From Kiritimatiellia bacterium (GTDB lineage Bacteria > Verrucomicrobiota > Kiritimatiellia > JAAZAB01): a stretch of DNA of 46,961 bases. The translations under genes were made by a program, and so were the position numbers. Positions 2,684 through 27,910 of the stretch are shown in pieces. Position 1 is the first letter of the stretch, and each line of letters starts with the position of its first letter. The notes under the pieces were generated by a model that saw only the letters and a program-made list of their open reading frames with translations, searched no databases and was not told the DNA's origin. The stretch covers positions 79,979-126,939 of the forward strand of contig JAQUQV010000002.1 in the NCBI GenBank assembly GCA_028715905.1, read 5' to 3'.

Positions 2684-2767
2684 TGCCTGGGATGGGAGTC
2701 GAACCCATACGGCCTTTAGGGCCATCGGATTTTAAGTCCGATGCGTCTGCCATTCCGCCACCCAGGC
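2684..2767 (-). tRNA. tRNA-Leu (anticodon UAA)
   Basis: On the minus strand an 84-nt tRNA runs from GCCTGGG (2767-2761) to CCCAGGC plus discriminator A. The D-arm, the anticodon loop CTTAAAA with anticodon TAA, a class II variable arm and a TTCGACTCC T-loop are all visible. The 3' CCA is not encoded. The anticodon arm is the integration point of the element to the right. The 5' half of the gene (2726-2767) is duplicated at 21272-21313, so the working gene is a hybrid of the host 3' half and an element-borne 5' half, and its promoter now lies in element DNA. Confidence 0.95.
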
Positions 2768-3061
2768 TTCTGGTATTGAAAAAATTGATTTTATTGACCA
2801 ATAATACCATCAGAAGCAAATTGAACCGCACAAAACGAAAAGCAAGGGGAATATGACAAAAAAAAGACGCACCGGCAATCTTTATCAGCGCGGAAAAACA
2901 TGGTGGCTGAAATATATGGTTGAAGGCCGGCTGATCCGGCAGAGCCTTGAAACAACCAGCCGCGAAGAAGCGGAAGAAAAACAAAAAGAAATTATGCGTC
3001 CGTTCATGGCCGCCGCCCGTGTTGACGCTCACGCCATAATGGAGAAGCGTCTCCGGGATGC
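2726..3061. repeat. 336-bp direct repeat, copy 1: att region plus integrase start
   Basis: This stretch recurs at 21272-21607 in the same orientation with only two substitutions that I can find (at 3047 and 3057). It covers the tRNA-Leu 5' half from the anticodon arm, the 85 bp between tRNA and integrase, and the first 70 integrase codons. The left boundary is abrupt (T at 2725 versus G at 21271) and falls in the anticodon stem-loop, so the recombination core is probably CGGATTTTAAGTCCG. Confidence 0.92.
2768..2852. promoter_or_regulatory. tRNA/integrase divergent control region with imperfect palindrome
   Basis: These 85 bp lie between the divergent tRNA-Leu and integrase genes, so they should carry both promoters. 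The halves TTCTGGTATT and AATACCATCAGAA form an imperfect inverted repeat around an A+T-rich centre. This could be an integrase-binding arm site or an operator. I could not fix -10/-35 boxes with confidence. Confidence 0.4.
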
Positions 3062-4193
3062 TGTCATAGAGCGCGACCTGGCAGAGGAAACCGCCCACCC
3101 GCCGCTTTCCGTGGTTGATGCTTGGGATGCTTTTATAAAATCACCCAAGAGGCCGGACAGCGGACCGGCAACGTTGGGGGCTTATGCCTTGCAATGGGGA
3201 AGTTTTGTCCGATGGCTGACAAAAGAACATCCGGACATGAAACAGTTGCGCGAAGTCACAAAAGAAACCGCCGAAGAATATTCCACGCACCTGACCAGCC
3301 GGGGCATAACGCCGAATACTTTTAATAAACACGTCCGCGTTTGTGATCTGGTTTTCCGTATTCTAAAAGACAAGGCGAAAATTATAGAAAATCCGTTTCC
3401 CGGTATTACGCGCAAACATCTAACGACGCAATCCCATAGAGAGCTTTCCACGGAAGAATTGATCAGGGTTTGCCGATCAGCGACAGGGGAACTTCGTTCA
3501 ATGCTGGCAATGGGGCTATACCTGGGCGCGCGTTTGGGCGATGCGGTAATGATGGACTGGGGATGCGTTGACCTGATTAAACGCCTGATTCGCTACACGC
3601 CACACAAGACCGCCCGGCGATCTGGCAGAATTTTGACTGTGCCGCTACATCCGGTTTTACTGAACATTTTTAATGAGATTCCACCGGTCAATCGCAAAGG
3701 CTACATACATCCGAACATGGCCGATCTATACAGACGCCGGGGCGCGTGTGCTGTAACCAATATAATTCAGGCGCATTTCAAAAAATGCGGGATTACAACC
3801 AATCGCAAAGGAAACGGTGTTCGCAAAGTGGCAAGCGCAAGTTTTCATTCGCTAAGACATTCCGCTGTTTCTCTGCTACGCGAAGCCGGAGCGCCGTTAT
3901 CCGTTACAATGGCAATTGTCGGACATTCCACGCTGGCAATCCATGACACCTATTCCCATGCCGGAGAAGCCGCGCTTAAACAGGCTGTAGCCGCGCTTCC
4001 GTCTGTCATGGGGGAACTGATTCCCAAAACCTTGCCAGCCCTGCCGGCGGCAACAGAGCAAATGATTAAAGCCGATAAAGTTCAGGTATTGGCAGAGCGA
4101 TTGAATAGTAAAACATGGCGAATTGTCCGGGATGAATTACTAACCTTGACAACACCAAAATCACTTGCAATAACGTTTAAAACGAAAGGATAA
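2853..4193 (+). CDS. Tyrosine-type site-specific integrase
   Basis: Integrates and excises the element at tRNA-Leu. The 446 residues have an N-terminal AP2-like arm-binding part (RTGNLYQRGKTWWLKY), a core-binding SAM-like region at about 85-185 and a catalytic domain. Visible catalytic residues are R227 (LGARLGD), K252, H332-x2-R335 (FHSLRHSA), H358 (VGHST) and the tyrosine Y367 (DTYSH), so the set is complete. The start ATG is preceded by AAGGGGAA. The gene lies immediately beside its presumed attachment site. About 70 residues beyond the catalytic domain are not typical. A truncated copy of its first 70 codons sits at 21399. Confidence 0.95.
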   Translation: MTKKRRTGNLYQRGKTWWLKYMVEGRLIRQSLETTSREEAEEKQKEIMRPFMAAARVDAHAIMEKRLRDAVIERDLAEETAHPPLSVVDAWDAFIKSPKRPDSGPATLGAYALQWGSFVRWLTKEHPDMKQLREVTKETAEEYSTHLTSRGITPNTFNKHVRVCDLVFRILKDKAKIIENPFPGITRKHLTTQSHRELSTEELIRVCRSATGELRSMLAMGLYLGARLGDAVMMDWGCVDLIKRLIRYTPHKTARRSGRILTVPLHPVLLNIFNEIPPVNRKGYIHPNMADLYRRRGACAVTNIIQAHFKKCGITTNRKGNGVRKVASASFHSLRHSAVSLLREAGAPLSVTMAIVGHSTLAIHDTYSHAGEAALKQAVAALPSVMGELIPKTLPALPAATEQMIKADKVQVLAERLNSKTWRIVRDELLTLTTPKSLAITFKTKG

Positions 4194-4779: not shown

Positions 4780-5979
4780 TTACGGCATAAGCATTTTATT
4801 TGCGACGGCTTGAGAAAGACCGACTTTTTCTTCTGAACCAAGAACAGGTTTTTCAATGTTTTGGCTTTGCGCCAAAGTCGCCCGTTCTTTTGCCGCTTGG
4901 TCTTCCGCAATCCTGTCCCGGATTCTCTGCATGGCGGCCATGTCGGCAAGAACCATATGCGGCTTTTTATCAAACCCGGAAATCAAAACCTTATCGTCAT
5001 AACAAAAGAGGACCTTGCCAAGCCGACAATATTGCCCCTGAACATAGCGGTCATTTTCAGTTGTCACCACCCGGCCCCGTTCATCTTCTACGACTCCAAG
5101 AAACGCTTCATGCAGGACAACATCCACAGGCGGCTTGACATAATAAGCGCCTGGCGCGACCGCAGAACCAGCCACAGGCCGAGCTGGACCGGCAGAGGGC
5201 ATAACCACAGACGGGACCGGCTTGTCTTTTATAAATCCAAACCTGGAGCCAAGCCGGGACCAGGCCAGCCAGCCAAGCCCGATAATCAAAAGAATAAAGA
5301 AAATCAATCTCATAATACGCCGTCCCTTCCGTTTAATCTTGCCGTCAAACTTCGCACCATGCCCCTTGAGCCGGGTAAAAGTCCGAAGCAAAGTGTATGT
5401 ATTATAAAGCGCATAAATGCCAACGTCCTTGAATTCAAACCTCTTGTCCAAAATTGTCTTGCCGTCATAATCATATTGAACCATAAGAAACTGATTGAGC
5501 GGCCAGCCAATCCCCAGCGCGGAAATCTTGAGTTTTTTGAGGTCCCGGAAACGCCAGATATATTGAACCAGCCGCATAATCTGCTTGTCCAAGTTAAGCG
5601 CAGATTGAGAAATGAAAATAATATCCGTGAAACACTTCCGGGATTGAGAAAGGAAAATAAGCATTTCGCGCAGGACGTTCGCCCAATCCCGGGCGTTAAG
5701 CCAGATATGAGCTTCGTCAATGACAACCAGCGACGGAGTCCCGTCAATACCTGGGGGAGTATGCTTGTAAAATTGATTGATCTGTTCATCTTCCAGATAG
5801 ATAAACTGGCCTTTTTGATATTCCCAATCATGCCGACTCCGCAAAAACGCCTTAACCGGCTCCATGTTCAACATGATATTTGAACATACACAACCACCGG
5901 CGGCGATATATTCACACATACGCCGGACAGCATGATAAGTTTTTCCGCCACCTAAACGGCCTTCATAAACTTCTATCAC
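4780..5979 (-). CDS. Zot-domain phage assembly ATPase (inovirus pI-like)
   Basis: Inner-membrane ATPase that drives extrusion of filamentous phage (Zot/pI family); this is the main inovirus hallmark. The 399 residues begin with a Walker A motif GRLGGGKT (7-14) and a Walker B VVIDEAHIW (85-93). A transmembrane segment lies near 220-240 (LIFFILLIIGLGWLAW) after a basic stretch, followed by a proline-rich periplasmic part. This is the usual Zot layout. The start is GTG at 5979 with GGTAGGAA before it. It is the last gene of the minus-strand structural block, as is typical of inoviruses. No pIV-type secretin gene is visible, so the phage may use a host secretin. Confidence 0.92.
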   Translation of the reverse strand: MIEVYEGRLGGGKTYHAVRRMCEYIAAGGCVCSNIMLNMEPVKAFLRSRHDWEYQKGQFIYLEDEQINQFYKHTPPGIDGTPSLVVIDEAHIWLNARDWANVLREMLIFLSQSRKCFTDIIFISQSALNLDKQIMRLVQYIWRFRDLKKLKISALGIGWPLNQFLMVQYDYDGKTILDKRFEFKDVGIYALYNTYTLLRTFTRLKGHGAKFDGKIKRKGRRIMRLIFFILLIIGLGWLAWSRLGSRFGFIKDKPVPSVVMPSAGPARPVAGSAVAPGAYYVKPPVDVVLHEAFLGVVEDERGRVVTTENDRYVQGQYCRLGKVLFCYDDKVLISGFDKKPHMVLADMAAMQRIRDRIAEDQAAKERATLAQSQNIEKPVLGSEEKVGLSQAVANKMLMP

Positions 5980-6081: not shown

Positions 6082-6465
6082 TTACCCCGAAACGGTAGGA
6101 ATCCATGACTTGACAAGGCCATATACCGCGCAAGCGATACCGAGCGAAACAAGCGCAATCATCATCAGGAAAGTTTCAGTCAGAGGAAAAAACGTGTTTG
6201 TAATCTCCAGGATGGACAAGACATTGACCGTGTCAGATAAGCCTCCGGTCACAGAGTCAGGAATTCTAAGCTTGTCAATCCATTGCGCAATATAGCCGAG
6301 CAAATGAGAAGCAAACCGGATCGCGCTGGTCAGTGACATCATAAACGCAAGAATAATCGCAAAGCCGGAGGAAATCAGATAAGACAGAAAGCCCCCGGAT
6401 ATTTGAAGAAAGCGAATGATCGCGTCAAGCCACTTGCCGGCAAATAAAAATAATAATCTCAACAT
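6082..6465 (-). CDS. Small polytopic membrane protein, pVI-like minor coat protein
   Basis: This 127-residue protein has about three hydrophobic segments (near 1-30, 35-60 and 95-120) and little else. It lies between the pIII-like adsorption gene and the Zot ATPase gene, the position held by pVI/DUF2523-type minor coat proteins in inoviruses. It starts 3 bp after the adsorption-gene stop. Assignment is by position and topology; sequence similarity to pVI is not evident by eye. Confidence 0.7.
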   Translation of the reverse strand: MLRLLFLFAGKWLDAIIRFLQISGGFLSYLISSGFAIILAFMMSLTSAIRFASHLLGYIAQWIDKLRIPDSVTGGLSDTVNVLSILEITNTFFPLTETFLMMIALVSLGIACAVYGLVKSWIPTVSG

Positions 6466-6468
6466 ATT

Positions 6469-7998
6469 TTATACCCTCCCGAATGTTCTTTTAATCATGA
6501 CGAAAGCAATCCAAAACGAAAGCAGAGCCATGATCCATTTCATGAACGTGCGGAAAACGCCGATTATCGGCCAGTCAGAGGTCCGTATTTCTACAACCTG
6601 GTCAAGATAGGGAAACGTAAAGCTAAACGATTCTTTAATGCCGACACTCGGCAAGGGCAAAGAAACCACGTCAAGAATTCCCTTTGCCTTGACAAAAAAG
6701 GCGTCAGCGTCAGCCTGAATTTTATCGGATTCAGCAAAATATTTTTCCGTATAATCACTGGCCGCGCGGAGCAGGTCATTTGAATACGTTAAGCCGTATT
6801 GCGCTGGGTCAGAAGGAATATAAGAATTTGCTTCATCACTTAACGCAGAACGAAGCATGTCATACCATTGCGCCAGCGTATAACCGCCGCCAGCCCCGTT
6901 TGTATTGCCGGGATCCGGCGGCACATAGTTTGTCGGATTATTCGGGTCCGGTGTAGGGTCATCCGGCCCGGGCGGATTATAAGGCGAATTGGTATTGTAA
7001 GGCCAGTTAGGCGGCGGATATTGCGGCCACTCCGTCAAAGGCGGCGGCGGATAATAATTCGGCGGCCAGGGCGAATAATAAGGCGGCCAGGGGCCAGGCG
7101 GTGTTTCCGGGTCATAAGCATCATCTCCGGGATAAGGGATATAAGGGTCAGGCGGAGAGTTTGTCGGAGCAGGCGGCACATAAGGCGAATTAGTGTTGTA
7201 ATCAGTAAAATCTAACTTCGTCACATAATGAAAATCATTCGGATTAGAAAGAGACGTCATCGCCATCGGCAACTGCTCCGGCAATTGACCAGGAACATAA
7301 ATAATCCACTCATAAAAAACATTATATGCTTGTTCTACTGTTCCTAATTTGTAATGGACACTGTCCAGATACGCGCCTGAAGTCGTATGAGTAAAAACAC
7401 CTTTGGATGACCAGGGTCCCGGATAAGTATTGTCTATCGCAGACGCTACAAATAATTCAGCTTGAAAGCCCTTATTTGTTTGTCCATCCAAAAAAACCAC
7501 ACCTTCCAAGTCAAAATAGCAATAATAATCCGGTGGCGGCGGCGGGCCATTCGTAGAATAAACGCAATAAATCCATCCGACATCAGTGTAAAAATGCCAA
7601 TTCGCCCACTGATAATCCACAATAGGATAAGAATTATTCAAAACAGGAACATCACACTGAAAATAATAATTTGATCCATTCACCAGATTCCCGGGAGGCT
7701 GCATAGAATTTGCATCCCCCGGAGGCGGGATATAATGAAAATCCCAGATTGAACCACCTTCAAAATTCTTAAACGTCCTGGACCAAAACGGGCCAATAGA
7801 TGGTTTTGTCACCCCAACCGGCCAGTTTGACCAAACAACATTATAATATTGATCAACTTGAATGACGGCCCCTAAACCGTTTCCCTGACCCTGGCTGAAC
7901 GGATTCCGGCTCCAGGGACGTTCCTCAGCCACCACAGGACGAACAAGTCCAGCCATTATGACCGAGCAAAGAAGCAAACCGCACAGATAAGCGCGCAT
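6469..7998 (-). CDS. pIII-like phage adsorption/minor coat protein
   Basis: Probable tip protein that binds the host receptor. From ATG 7998 (preceded by GGGGGA) it has 509 residues: a signal peptide (LCGLLLCSVIMAGLVRPVVA), an N-terminal domain of about 250 residues rich in Tyr, Trp and Asn, a low-complexity linker rich in Pro, Tyr, Asn and Gly (about 285-385, many PPP, NSP and PYP units), a C-terminal domain and a final membrane anchor (MALLSFWIAFVMIKR). Receptor-binding domain, flexible linker and C-terminal anchor is the pIII plan. A second ATG at 8016 is possible but has a poorer ribosome site. The N-terminal domain is not one I recognise. Confidence 0.85.
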   Translation of the reverse strand: MRAYLCGLLLCSVIMAGLVRPVVAEERPWSRNPFSQGQGNGLGAVIQVDQYYNVVWSNWPVGVTKPSIGPFWSRTFKNFEGGSIWDFHYIPPPGDANSMQPPGNLVNGSNYYFQCDVPVLNNSYPIVDYQWANWHFYTDVGWIYCVYSTNGPPPPPDYYCYFDLEGVVFLDGQTNKGFQAELFVASAIDNTYPGPWSSKGVFTHTTSGAYLDSVHYKLGTVEQAYNVFYEWIIYVPGQLPEQLPMAMTSLSNPNDFHYVTKLDFTDYNTNSPYVPPAPTNSPPDPYIPYPGDDAYDPETPPGPWPPYYSPWPPNYYPPPPLTEWPQYPPPNWPYNTNSPYNPPGPDDPTPDPNNPTNYVPPDPGNTNGAGGGYTLAQWYDMLRSALSDEANSYIPSDPAQYGLTYSNDLLRAASDYTEKYFAESDKIQADADAFFVKAKGILDVVSLPLPSVGIKESFSFTFPYLDQVVEIRTSDWPIIGVFRTFMKWIMALLSFWIAFVMIKRTFGRV

Positions 7999-8240
7999 AT
8001 TGTCCCCCAAATCCATAAATTAACTTTCAACAAAAACATTAAGGCTTGATTCAAAGCCAGAGACGACCCCTGAAAGACCAGGTTTGTCAGACCTGCAACC
8101 TGAACCGAAAGATCTGAAACCTGGGAAGAAAGATTGGTAACAGCGGAATAAACCTGCTCGTCAAAAACCATCAAGGACGAACCAAAAACATCAGCCGCCA
8201 GAAACACGCTTAAAAGCGCGAATAATAACCTTAACCCCAT
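7956..8240 (-). CDS. Small exported coiled-coil membrane protein of the phage
   Basis: From ATG 8240 (GGGGAGGG site just upstream) this is a 94-residue protein: signal peptide (LRLLFALLSVFLAADVFG), a heptad-like stretch NLSSQVSDLSVQVAGLTNL, and a C-terminal hydrophobic segment rich in Trp and Cys. Its end overlaps the start of the pIII-like gene, and its start overlaps the end of a small coat-like gene by 50 bp. A virion or assembly role is likely from position. No family recognised. Confidence 0.7.
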   Translation of the reverse strand: MGLRLLFALLSVFLAADVFGSSLMVFDEQVYSAVTNLSSQVSDLSVQVAGLTNLVFQGSSLALNQALMFLLKVNLWIWGTICALICAVCFFARS

Positions 8241-8346
8241 AACACCCTCCCCATATAACGACGACCGGCAGAAGAAATTGAATGAAAAGCTCATACAATC
8301 CCGCATAGATCGCCGCGCCGGAAACTTCTATAATATTATTCGTCAT
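8191..8346 (-). CDS. Coat-protein-like small membrane protein without signal peptide
   Basis: From ATG 8346 (GGAAGG 10 bp upstream) this encodes 51 residues beginning MTNNIIEVSG, then a single hydrophobic segment and a basic tail YGVKVIIRAFKRVSGG. The tail matches that of the major coat protein at 8685 (YGIRIIVRAFKGVK), so the two are probably paralogues, but this one lacks a signal peptide. Its last 50 bp overlap the next gene in another frame, which places that gene's Shine-Dalgarno inside this coding sequence. A minor coat role (pVII/pIX-like cap) is inferred. Confidence 0.7.
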   Translation of the reverse strand: MTNNIIEVSGAAIYAGLYELFIQFLLPVVVIWGGCYGVKVIIRAFKRVSGG

Positions 8347-8377
8347 CGGAAACTGCCTTCCATTCACAACGCTTTTC

Positions 8378-8463
8378 AAACAGATTCACCGAGTGAAACT
8401 GTTTGCAGCTTTTGCTCATACTCACGCAATCATTACGTCATAAATTCCGTAATCATTGCTTCG
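8378..8463. repeat. Structured repeat copy 1: two hairpins in phage intergenic DNA
   Basis: Hairpin A pairs AAACAG with CTGTTT and TTCAC with GTGAA around CGA (8378-8404). A conserved linker containing CTTTTGCTCATACTC follows, then hairpin B pairs GCAATCATTAC with GTAATCATTGC (one central mismatch) to about 8459. A second copy lies 147 bp away with compensating changes in hairpin A. It sits between the two coat-like genes. Confidence 0.85.
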
Positions 8464-8524
8464 CCCCCTGAAACCAACTTTTAATCAGCACCGGAAAAGA
8501 CCGCCCAAGATTCGCAACGCCCAC

Positions 8525-8612
8525 GAACAGATTTACAAAATAAAACTGTTCTTGGCTTTTGCTCATACTCGCGCAATCATTACTTCATAAAACTTTCGTA
8601 ATCATTGCTCCG
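8525..8612. repeat. Structured repeat copy 2: same two hairpins with covariation
   Basis: Hairpin A is GAACAG/CTGTTC and TTTA/TAAA (8525-8551). Relative to copy 1, the outer A-T pair became G-C and the inner stem changed on both sides. The linker CTTTTGCTCATACTC and hairpin B (GCAATCATTAC, GTAATCATTGC) are kept. Structure is conserved more than sequence, which argues for a functional DNA or RNA fold such as a replication origin, a packaging signal or an mRNA processing site. Confidence 0.85.
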
Positions 8613-8684
8613 TAACCAGACCCAACTTTTGAACCGGACAAGGACAGCCCCACCTATGCAGGGCTGTCCCACGACCCGGACGGA

Positions 8685-8909
8685 TTATTTCACGCCTTTG
8701 AAAGCGCGGACAATTATCCGGATACCATACAGACCAAGGAATATGGCCAAAGCCGCACCAGCGGCCACGGCGATATATCCGGCCAGCGTCACGCCAGCCG
8801 CGGTCAGGTCAAGCGGAGGCGTGTCCTCTGCAAAACCCAGTACCGGCAAACCGACCGCAAGAGCGACCGGCAAACCGATCTTGATATACTTTCTGATTAT
8901 CTTGAACAT
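8685..8909 (-). CDS. Major coat protein precursor (pVIII-like)
   Basis: From ATG 8909 (GGAGGTG site) this encodes 74 residues: a signal peptide of about 28 with basic start (FKIIRKYIKIGLP) and cleavage near GFA/EDTPP, then a mature chain of about 46 residues with an acidic N-terminus, one hydrophobic helix with small residues (GYIAVAAGAALAIFLGLYG) and a basic tail (RIIVRAFKGVK). Size and charge pattern are those of filamentous phage major coat proteins, where the basic tail faces the DNA. It lies upstream of the minor coat and adsorption genes. Confidence 0.9.
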   Translation of the reverse strand: MFKIIRKYIKIGLPVALAVGLPVLGFAEDTPPLDLTAAGVTLAGYIAVAAGAALAIFLGLYGIRIIVRAFKGVK

Positions 8910-9528: not shown

Positions 9529-9759
9529 TCCCCAAATCTTCCCTTCCATCCCCAGGCAGTGATTCCGGCCACCCAAAAGCGCGAAGGCTTAAACCACCTA
9601 AAACCGCTTTGAATTACGAAGCCCCCCCCCCGTCCAGCCTTAAACCCCAACCCCGCAGGACTGAATTTTGATAGACCTATATTCAAGCCATCCGGTCAGC
9701 CCGCCGCCGCTTGCGCGGCGGCAGGCCGCCCGGAACCTTTGTATGTCACGTTCGGGTGA
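9529..9759. other. Phage intergenic region with GC hairpin and C-tract (candidate origin/packaging signal)
   Basis: This non-coding stretch next to rep holds a run of ten C (9622-9631) and a perfect 8-bp GC-rich hairpin GCCGCCGC-TTGC-GCGGCGGC (9703-9722). Filamentous phages place their origins and packaging hairpin in such intergenic regions. No nick-site consensus can be named by eye. Confidence 0.45.
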
Positions 9760-10317
9760 TTACCCGACGACGTGTTGCACGTTTCCGTCTGTCTGTAACT
9801 TTGCCAGCATCAAAGAATCCCGATAATGATTCATCAGAATTACTTTCTCAACCGACTTGGACAGCATCAGAACCGACCTGGCCGCCCCGAACTTGGCCGA
9901 CTCATACGCCATAGATCCAGAGCCTATATCAGAGGCAGAGCAACCCAACAGCCCCGCAATATATGGCAACCCATGCAACCGATTGTCATACAGATCAATC
10001 CGGGAAATACCGCCGCCGATACGTTTCCACAGCGCGCGCATCGCAAATCTATTTCCCATAGTGACACCCTGTTCCGGCAGGCCGGCGATTAAAAAATGAA
10101 AATGCAAACGCCCGAACGAATCGCCGCGCTCTAAGCGTAAGCACCAGAGTAAATCTTTCCTATGAACCTTGTTATGAGCCGCTATTTGCCTGAAAAAAGC
10201 AAACCACATTGACAACCGGGCACGTTCAGACAATTTAGCTTGCCGAAAGGTCAGGCCGCCGAATAATTGCCACATAATAGAACTCAAAAAGAATGTCTCT
10301 GGATTTTCTAAAATCAT
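9760..10317 (-). CDS. Rolling-circle replication initiator (HUH-type Rep)
   Basis: Probable phage replication initiator that nicks the double-stranded form. The 185 residues include a motif-1-like strand (GGLTF), the metal-binding HUH motif GRLHFHFLIAG (H-F-H) at about 75-80, and a tyrosine in LHGLPYIAGLLG that could be the catalytic residue. In-frame sequence upstream of ATG 10317 reaches a stop after 11 codons with no better start, so the protein is short but probably complete. No clear ribosome site is present. It lies downstream of the candidate ssDNA-binding gene. Confidence 0.75.
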   Translation of the reverse strand: MILENPETFFLSSIMWQLFGGLTFRQAKLSERARLSMWFAFFRQIAAHNKVHRKDLLWCLRLERGDSFGRLHFHFLIAGLPEQGVTMGNRFAMRALWKRIGGGISRIDLYDNRLHGLPYIAGLLGCSASDIGSGSMAYESAKFGAARSVLMLSKSVEKVILMNHYRDSLMLAKLQTDGNVQHVVG

Positions 10318-11621: not shown

Positions 11622-11844
11622 ATTTCTCCTTAACCTTTTGTTTTTCCCGACGCTCCAATTCAACTTGCAACTTAACCAACAGCCAATAAATCTTCTCAAT
11701 GGATCCGCGATAAACTTTTCGGCGGCCAGCTTCCCGAATCGCCAAGACATCGCCCGGCTCAAGCATAACAACCAATTTGCGGTTAATAGGAAATCCGGCA
11801 AGCTTGCATGTGCGACGTTTAATTATCCTGTTTATTTCATTCAT
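11614..11844 (-). CDS. Small basic phage protein, possibly DNA-binding
   Basis: ATG 11844 follows GGAGGT at an ideal distance. The 76-residue product is strongly basic, with MNEINRIIKRRTCKLAGF, then PGDVLAIREAGRRKVYRGS and a helical charged tail. The central part resembles a small beta-hairpin or AbrB-like unit, but I cannot place it in a family. It is tightly linked to neighbours: its ATG overlaps the TGA of the 30-residue membrane gene, and its end overlaps the next GTG start. Confidence 0.6.
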   Translation of the reverse strand: MNEINRIIKRRTCKLAGFPINRKLVVMLEPGDVLAIREAGRRKVYRGSIEKIYWLLVKLQVELERREKQKVKEKCD

Positions 11845-11933
11845 GTTTTTTTACCTCCATTATGAAAATTATCTGTCAGAAAAAACCAAAACAACACACT
11901 CAGAACAATAACCAGTAATAAAAATCCGTTCAT
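11841..11933 (-). CDS. 30-residue single-span membrane protein
   Basis: ATG 11933 overlaps the upstream stop codon (ATGA), and its own TGA overlaps the next ATG (ATGA at 11841-11844). The peptide is one hydrophobic span, MNGFLLLVIVLSVLFWFFLT, plus a short tail, and the next gene's GGAGGT site lies inside its last codons. Overlap at both ends points to a real, translationally coupled gene. Size fits inovirus pVII/pIX-like proteins or a small holin-like peptide. Confidence 0.65.
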   Translation of the reverse strand: MNGFLLLVIVLSVLFWFFLTDNFHNGGKKT

Positions 11934-21271: not shown

Positions 21272-21607
21272 CGGATTTTAAGTCCGATGCGTCTGCCATT
21301 CCGCCACCCAGGCTTCTGGTATTGAAAAAATTGATTTTATTGACCAATAATACCATCAGAAGCAAATTGAACCGCACAAAACGAAAAGCAAGGGGAATAT
21401 GACAAAAAAAAGACGCACCGGCAATCTTTATCAGCGCGGAAAAACATGGTGGCTGAAATATATGGTTGAAGGCCGGCTGATCCGGCAGAGCCTTGAAACA
21501 ACCAGCCGCGAAGAAGCGGAAGAAAAACAAAAAGAAATTATGCGTCCGTTCATGGCCGCCGCCCGTGTTGACGCTCACGCCATAATGGAGAAACGTCTCC
21601 GGAATGC
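21272..21607. repeat. 336-bp direct repeat, copy 2: truncated tRNA-Leu and integrase start
   Basis: Nearly identical copy of 2726-3061. It holds the 5' half of tRNA-Leu (21272-21313), the intervening region and 70 codons of an integrase (ATG 21399), then breaks off. It marks the right end of the element and is the left end of a second, mostly deleted element. Confidence 0.92.
21399..21607 (+). pseudogene. Integrase remnant (first 70 codons)
   Basis: Identical to the N-terminus of the integrase at 2853 except for one codon change (EKRLRN instead of EKRLRD), with the frame continuing into unrelated sequence until a stop at 21734. No core-binding or catalytic domain remains, so it is inactive. 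Near identity with the intact copy suggests recent origin or gene conversion between the repeats. Confidence 0.9.
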
Positions 21608-27557: not shown

Positions 27558-27790
27558 GCAACGGATTTCATTCGTTGCCATGCAACGAGCATGGAAAGAA
27601 ACGTCTTCTGACTTCCGGCTTCAACCCCGCCGTTTGCCGGGGCAACCCCTACTCCTTCGCCTTCCCGTTCGCCTTGCAGTTTCGGCTCACAGTGGCTTCT
27701 TGAAGTTTCGTAGCCGGTCACAGAGGCGCGACCGCATCCGATTTTCACGGATTTCCGTACTCTTTCCGCAAGCACACTTCCTGTTCACAA
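27558..27790 (-). promoter_or_regulatory. Cobalamin riboswitch (AdoCbl-type leader)
   Basis: On the minus strand the leader contains the class hallmarks in order: GGAAATCCGTG, the B12-box core AAGCCACTGTGAG, GGGAAGGCGAAGGAG and the 3' block GAAGCCGGAAGTCAGAAGAC near 27602-27622. A separate stem GGCAACG/CGTTGCC lies at 27558-27580 between aptamer and terminator. Downstream genes are a complete btuFBCD set, which supports the identification. Confidence 0.9.
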
Positions 27791-27910
27791 AGAACCGCGG
27801 CAACTATATCGCATCCGGGCGGCATGTCAACGGAAATATCCCGAAAATACATTTGCCTTTATTTTTACAGTCGGATAGAATGCCTGTCGTCCAGTCGCGT
27901 GGTATTTAAT

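Follow-up and report, generated by a model that had tools for sequence, protein, structure and literature searches.

To our knowledge, the cis-acting signals for packaging and for the start of second-strand synthesis are known in detail for only a few enterobacterial filamentous phages. In the Ff phages (M13 and f1), the packaging signal adjoins the origin, and the complementary-strand origin, which is primed by RNA polymerase, resembles the single-strand origins of plasmids in having neighbouring hairpins on the displaced strand, separated by a short unpaired gap. Promoters, packaging signals and the origin all lie in the intergenic regions of inoviruses (PMC8491893). In M13, pVII and pIX read a packaging signal that is believed to be a hairpin (PMC10480500).

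Here we describe a two-hairpin element of about 90 bases that occurs twice in tandem between two coat-like genes of an inovirus-type prophage in the window, the whole 46,961-nucleotide stretch of DNA that was analysed. Like the Ff packaging signal, it offers imperfect hairpins in noncoding DNA on the putative virion strand of a filamentous phage; unlike it, the element is a predicted signal that combines two hairpins with a conserved linker, is tandemly duplicated and lies between coat genes. Its adjacent hairpins and short unpaired stretch also recall the Ff complementary-strand origin and plasmid single-strand origins, although the element comes in tandem copies and the likeness drawn here is one of layout. 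With the rolling-circle double-strand origins of HUH Rep proteins it shares a hairpin and conserved unpaired bases, yet it does not track the Rep family in three loci (L005, C40 and G008). Short repeated hairpins are typical of REP/BIME and MITE-like repeats too, but this element is not scattered, being always a tandem pair in phage DNA, and a mobile repeat of the REP/MITE type was ruled out by its four copies only in the genome. Type III toxin-antitoxin RNAs (ToxI-like) likewise present tandem structured repeats upstream of a gene, but here the downstream gene is coat-like, a toxin is absent, and the unit is about four times longer than that of ToxI. An element supported by covariation, together with a separate origin candidate in so far-off a lineage, supplies concrete and testable sequences; the finding reaches less far because the element is confined to one genome.

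The prophage and its coat-like genes

The prophage adjoins a tRNA-Leu gene (2684-2767) and carries its late genes on the minus strand (Table 1). The original prediction had placed the element between inovirus coat genes, and this identification is upheld by a Zot/pI homologue, a Rep of HUH type, a coat protein with a signal peptide and a second small coat-like protein. The carrier shows features expected of the Inoviridae: a Zot/pI-type ATPase, and one gene block that encodes both a small coat protein with a signal peptide and a rolling-circle Rep. The rep match to PF23343 falls under the curated Pfam cut-off, and the HxH motif is present; Pfam and PHROG searches with coat1 gave no match. Ribosome-binding sites precede coat1 (GGAGG) and coat2 (Shine-Dalgarno GGAAGG, 9 nt upstream).

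The stretch between the coat-like genes, the main noncoding one of the virus, spans 338 bp (8347-8684), with the coat1 hairpin first and the two elements after it. This hairpin has a terminator-like position without a U run, stands outside the repeated unit, and is missing from the second locus described below. A 336-bp repeat, 99.4% identical, extends from the tRNA-Leu anticodon arm into the integrase N-terminus (2726-3061 and 21272-21607). Integration appears to have used the anticodon loop as its site, and past 21272 there seems to be another integrated element, which is truncated.

Table 1. Features of the prophage region, in window positions
Feature	Position	Strand	Details
Tyrosine integrase	2853-4193		
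Zot/pI-like assembly ATPase	4780..5979	-	PF05707 2.8e-11, above cut-off; PHROG 197 8.7e-22; PHROG 1675 (protein I of M13) 2e-15
Likely pVI-like protein	6082-6465		
Large adsorption-like protein	6469-8016		
coat2, small coat-like protein	8191..8346	-	Ends YGVKVIIRAFKRVSGG; pVII-like by position; L004 homologue 61%
Tandem unit, two copies of ~147-150 bp	8347..8634	-	Four-copy alignment; flanks AAAAGTTGG upstream, GCGTTGyGAAT...TTTCC downstream
Element copy 2	8374..8461	-	Direct repeat; RNA and DNA folds; covariance-model search
Copy 2 parts		-	Hairpin B arms 8459-8449/8436-8426; linker 8425-8405; hairpin A 8404-8378
Element copy 1	8521..8610	-	First in coat-gene reading direction; direct repeat; folds; covariance-model score 106 bits
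Copy 1 parts		-	Hairpin B arms 8608-8598/8583-8573; 21-nt linker 8572-8552; hairpin A 8551-8525
Strong hairpin after coat1	8636..8676	-	Fold -26.3 kcal/mol, z -4.7
coat1, major coat protein-like	8685..8909	-	Signal peptide, TM, ends YGIRIIVRAFKGVK; L004 homologue 55%
Rival origin candidate	9676..9739	-	GCTTGAA 2-3 nt past a GC-rich hairpin; immediately 3' of rep
rep, HUH-type replication initiator	9760..10317	-	RLHFHFLIAGL; PF23343 REP_ORF2-G2P 2e-4; PHROG 3584 replication initiation 0.015

Architecture of the element

Both copies lie where they had been predicted, and they fold alike and far better than shuffled sequence, with minus-strand z values of -3.9 and -2.9 as RNA and of -5.1 and -4.2 as DNA; stability as single-stranded DNA ranges from z -3.1 to -5.1. 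Across the late region, a fold scan ranked the segment over element copy 2 sixth of 260 by unusualness, with the coat1 hairpin and a hairpin 3' of rep being stronger. The two copies form a direct repeat (D1; 83% identity over 66 nt, spacing 147), and each reads, on the minus strand, hairpin B, a near-invariant 21-nt linker and hairpin A.

On the plus strand, hairpin A is AAACAG a TTCAC cga GTGAA a CTGTTT at 8378-8404 and GAACAG a TTTAC aaa ATAAA a CTGTTC at 8525-8551. The stem changes first noticed between these two copies hold, with small corrections to the shape: the inner arms are 5 bp (in copy 1, TTTAT/GTAAA in minus-strand sense, including one U-G pair), and a T.T mismatch is retained on the minus strand. 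In hairpin B of both window copies, 10 of 11 arm positions are paired and the mismatch is central. The hairpins had been placed correctly, but the homologous unit in a four-copy alignment exceeds them, running for about 147-150 bp from AAAAGTTGG through GCGTTGCGAAT to TTTCC. The second tandem unit terminates at the coat2 start codon; about 20 nt separate the end of element copy 2 itself from the coat2 Shine-Dalgarno sequence, a placement that would suit a leader.

Frames beginning MSKS within the copies were considered as small-protein genes and rejected, the reading frame not being conserved: one C20 copy (C20_2) is stopped after 4 codons, and the first copies of the two loci (W1 and C20_1) differ by three amino acids against one silent site; outside C20_2, most changes are replacements.

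A second tandem pair and covariation of the stems

A search of the same genome located a second tandem pair on another contig, C20 (L006:3042-3286), 87% identical over the pair. Its setting is a decayed prophage remnant in which rep is broken, a helix-turn-helix gene is present and just the tail of coat1 survives, all other structural genes being lost. What is left of rep is kept along with the rep-side hairpin, and both element copies persist although coat2 is absent. Since this remnant is decayed, retention of the elements there may be accidental. Window and C20 copies correspond one to one as orthologs, which dates the duplication before their split. No fifth copy was found in the genome; the total is four, arranged each time as this tandem pair within phage DNA, at two independent loci of a single genome, one of them decayed.

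The covariation set comprised these four copies, two from the window and two from C20. All pair cells of the alignment (84/84) are standard pairs, pairing falls to 29-44% in slid controls, and as high a covariation score was attained in 2 of 500 shuffles. In hairpin A, three pairs changed on both sides (columns 60:86, 69:77 and 70:76), and a fourth, 71:75, varies among U-G, C-G and U-A. Each ortholog comparison shows exactly two changes in the hairpin A stem, which are both partners of one pair. Judged from these sequences, covariation support is good though short of overwhelming, a moderate signal, because random stem changes, with G-U allowed, would keep all pairs with P 0.15 and 0.13 for the two ortholog comparisons and with P 0.016 for the two window copies (W1/W2). 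Hairpin B, with nine invariant pairs and one change from A-U to G-U, barely varies, so the covariation is that of hairpin A. Covariation across the two window copies had been proposed as a sign of a selected fold: this applies to hairpin A and not to the near-invariant hairpin B, and the two extra copies, with further compensatory changes, support such a fold on the coat-gene strand. It is assigned to that strand, the minus strand, because three G-U cells are valid in the minus-strand sense only. A G.G mismatch in hairpin B and the T.T mismatch in hairpin A are invariant, which argues that the arms are not simply drifting toward perfect palindromes. Because paired bases changed together in four copies, we consider that the fold probably exists and serves the virus.

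The same changes might instead be mutational and functionless, produced by template switching in inverted repeats (quasipalindrome correction) or left as relics of recombination. The small number of sequences, the near-constancy of hairpin B and the chance values given above all suit this explanation, which we nevertheless think improbable: template switching should erase the internal G.G and T.T mismatches, yet they are invariant, and the stems show about the same conservation as the unpaired linker and the GCGTTGyGAAT flank. Alternatively, hairpin B could be an operator in which each arm is a palindromic protein-binding site (GyAATSATTrC), with 23-25 bp between the two sites and the hairpin as a by-product. 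Its arms are indeed each nearly palindromic and near-invariant, but symmetry within arms is broken at positions 2/10 in seven of the eight, while pairing between arms is kept in all four copies, once as G-U; the operator is the poorer reading on these grounds, leaves hairpin A unexplained, and strikes us as very unlikely.

Distribution of the element

A covariance model (R1) run against 346 genomes of the class and 388 of the phylum found only the genome of origin. In IMG/VR, pattern scans for the stem and for the long linker had no match, the 22 contigs with the short linker motif all lacked the element, and scans with coat1 and Rep found no relative; phage records held no DNA match. Zot, a Zot alignment and an alignment of the 6082-6465 protein led in IMG/VR to one contig, L004, the only close relative found (Zot 65%, coat1 55%, coat2 61%), which has a different Rep. 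By covariance-model search and inspection of the sequence, the element is absent from this one relative, whose coat1-coat2 gap holds a strong hairpin, a weakly structured stretch (fold z -1.6) and an ORF for a small membrane protein. This ORF (L004:4830-4961) encodes a 43-aa single-pass protein, overlaps the coat2 start and has no counterpart in the window. Among more distant Zot loci (G086, G137 and G237), gene order around the coat genes differs, and the covariance model again found no element.

A packaging signal would be expected to persist in relatives with common coat and assembly proteins, and the element is missing from L004, the single relative available. Occurrence of the pair in related prophages had been named as a test, and the outcome is divided: the nearest related phage lacks the pair, whereas the second prophage remnant has it. 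In Rfam 15, nothing reached the gathering score and the best permissive match had E 4, which speaks against a known RNA family; the earlier statement that no described family has this shape holds for Rfam 15 and the collections searched.

A separate candidate origin

A role as origin, one of those first suggested, is weakened by the site at 9676-9739, whose hairpin and GCTTGAA layout is kept beside four other related reps, in C40, C20, L005 and G008 (Rep identity to the window 73% in L005 and 31% in G008). The rep-side hairpin of C40 is nearly identical to that of the window, and the arms are clearly different in C20, L005 and G008. A double-strand origin should accompany its Rep family; the hairpin with GCTTGAA does so, and the element is absent beside related reps in C40, L005, G008 and G353, of which C40 and L005 are fragments. 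On sequence grounds, the candidate site would fit a rolling-circle origin better than the element does. An origin elsewhere, which had been foreseen as a counter-argument, has thus been found as a rival candidate with a putative nick site.

That Rep nicks the element itself as a duplicated rolling-circle (double-strand) origin we hold to be highly doubtful. It has hairpins and a conserved unpaired linker, and both of its loci carry this Rep family (decayed in C20) while L004, with another Rep, lacks it; but the hairpin and GCTTGAA keep their position 3' of rep in five related-Rep loci, three of them without the element, and homology between window and C40 DNA, 97.6% identical up to 9675, ends exactly at the rep-side hairpin, diverging at the GCTTGAATATAGGT end.

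GC-rich hairpins with GCTTGAA lie at L043 about 11790-11850, L006 about 4055-4110 (minus strand), L005 about 505-550 and L046 about 2022-2085; the layout also occurs at loci without obvious coat genes and is a candidate Rep recognition site. Two further remnants with rep and a helix-turn-helix gene occur in the same genome (L043:11371-12230 and L006:3608-4520). C40 and C20 share 92% identity in the helix-turn-helix region, and the C40 rep piece is 97.6% identical to the window. Beside the origin candidate, between rep and the next gene, a run of about ten C (about 9622-9631) is a possible slippage tract.

Possible roles on virion DNA and on mRNA

With a better origin candidate elsewhere, our first choice is that the element is a noncoding, structured, cis-acting signal, likely acting on single-stranded virion DNA in packaging or as a complementary-strand start, a choice we make tentatively. 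The minus strand is taken as the virion strand because the coat genes lie on it, following the inovirus convention; with the strand so assumed from gene direction, the hairpins occupy the virion strand in a noncoding region, as a packaging signal would. The element would fold in the single-stranded virion DNA, where a hairpin free of ssDNA-binding protein could be recognised when extrusion starts, or could serve as a platform for priming complementary-strand synthesis. It lies about 1.1 kb from the origin candidate, unlike the origin-adjoining packaging signal of Ff, which counts against this reading. The main points against a virion-DNA signal are the absence of the element from L004 and its closeness to the coat2 ribosome site.

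The latter leads to the runner-up, possible though rather unlikely, in which the element works in mRNA, as a leader or as a processed intergenic RNA after the coat1 hairpin, and determines how well coat2 and the late genes downstream are translated or how stable their message is. The mRNA strand is the one that folds, G-U pairs included, copy 2 stops just short of the coat2 GGAAGG, and the duplicated unit seems to contain a pseudo-start, TTTCCGrTG. Against such a leader, C20 keeps both copies without coat2, copy 1 directly serves no gene, the 61% identical coat2 of L004 has no such leader, and an Rfam match is absent.

Returning to virion DNA, we speculate, at low probability, that the element represents a new class of inovirus cis signal, a duplicated two-hairpin ssDNA module with a conserved linker, kept with rep and the rep-side hairpin in the C20 remnant much as a miniphage or satellite of the full prophage would keep them. 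Elsewhere in the window, the minus strand carries an ordinary cobalamin riboswitch (27581-27795, 63 bits).
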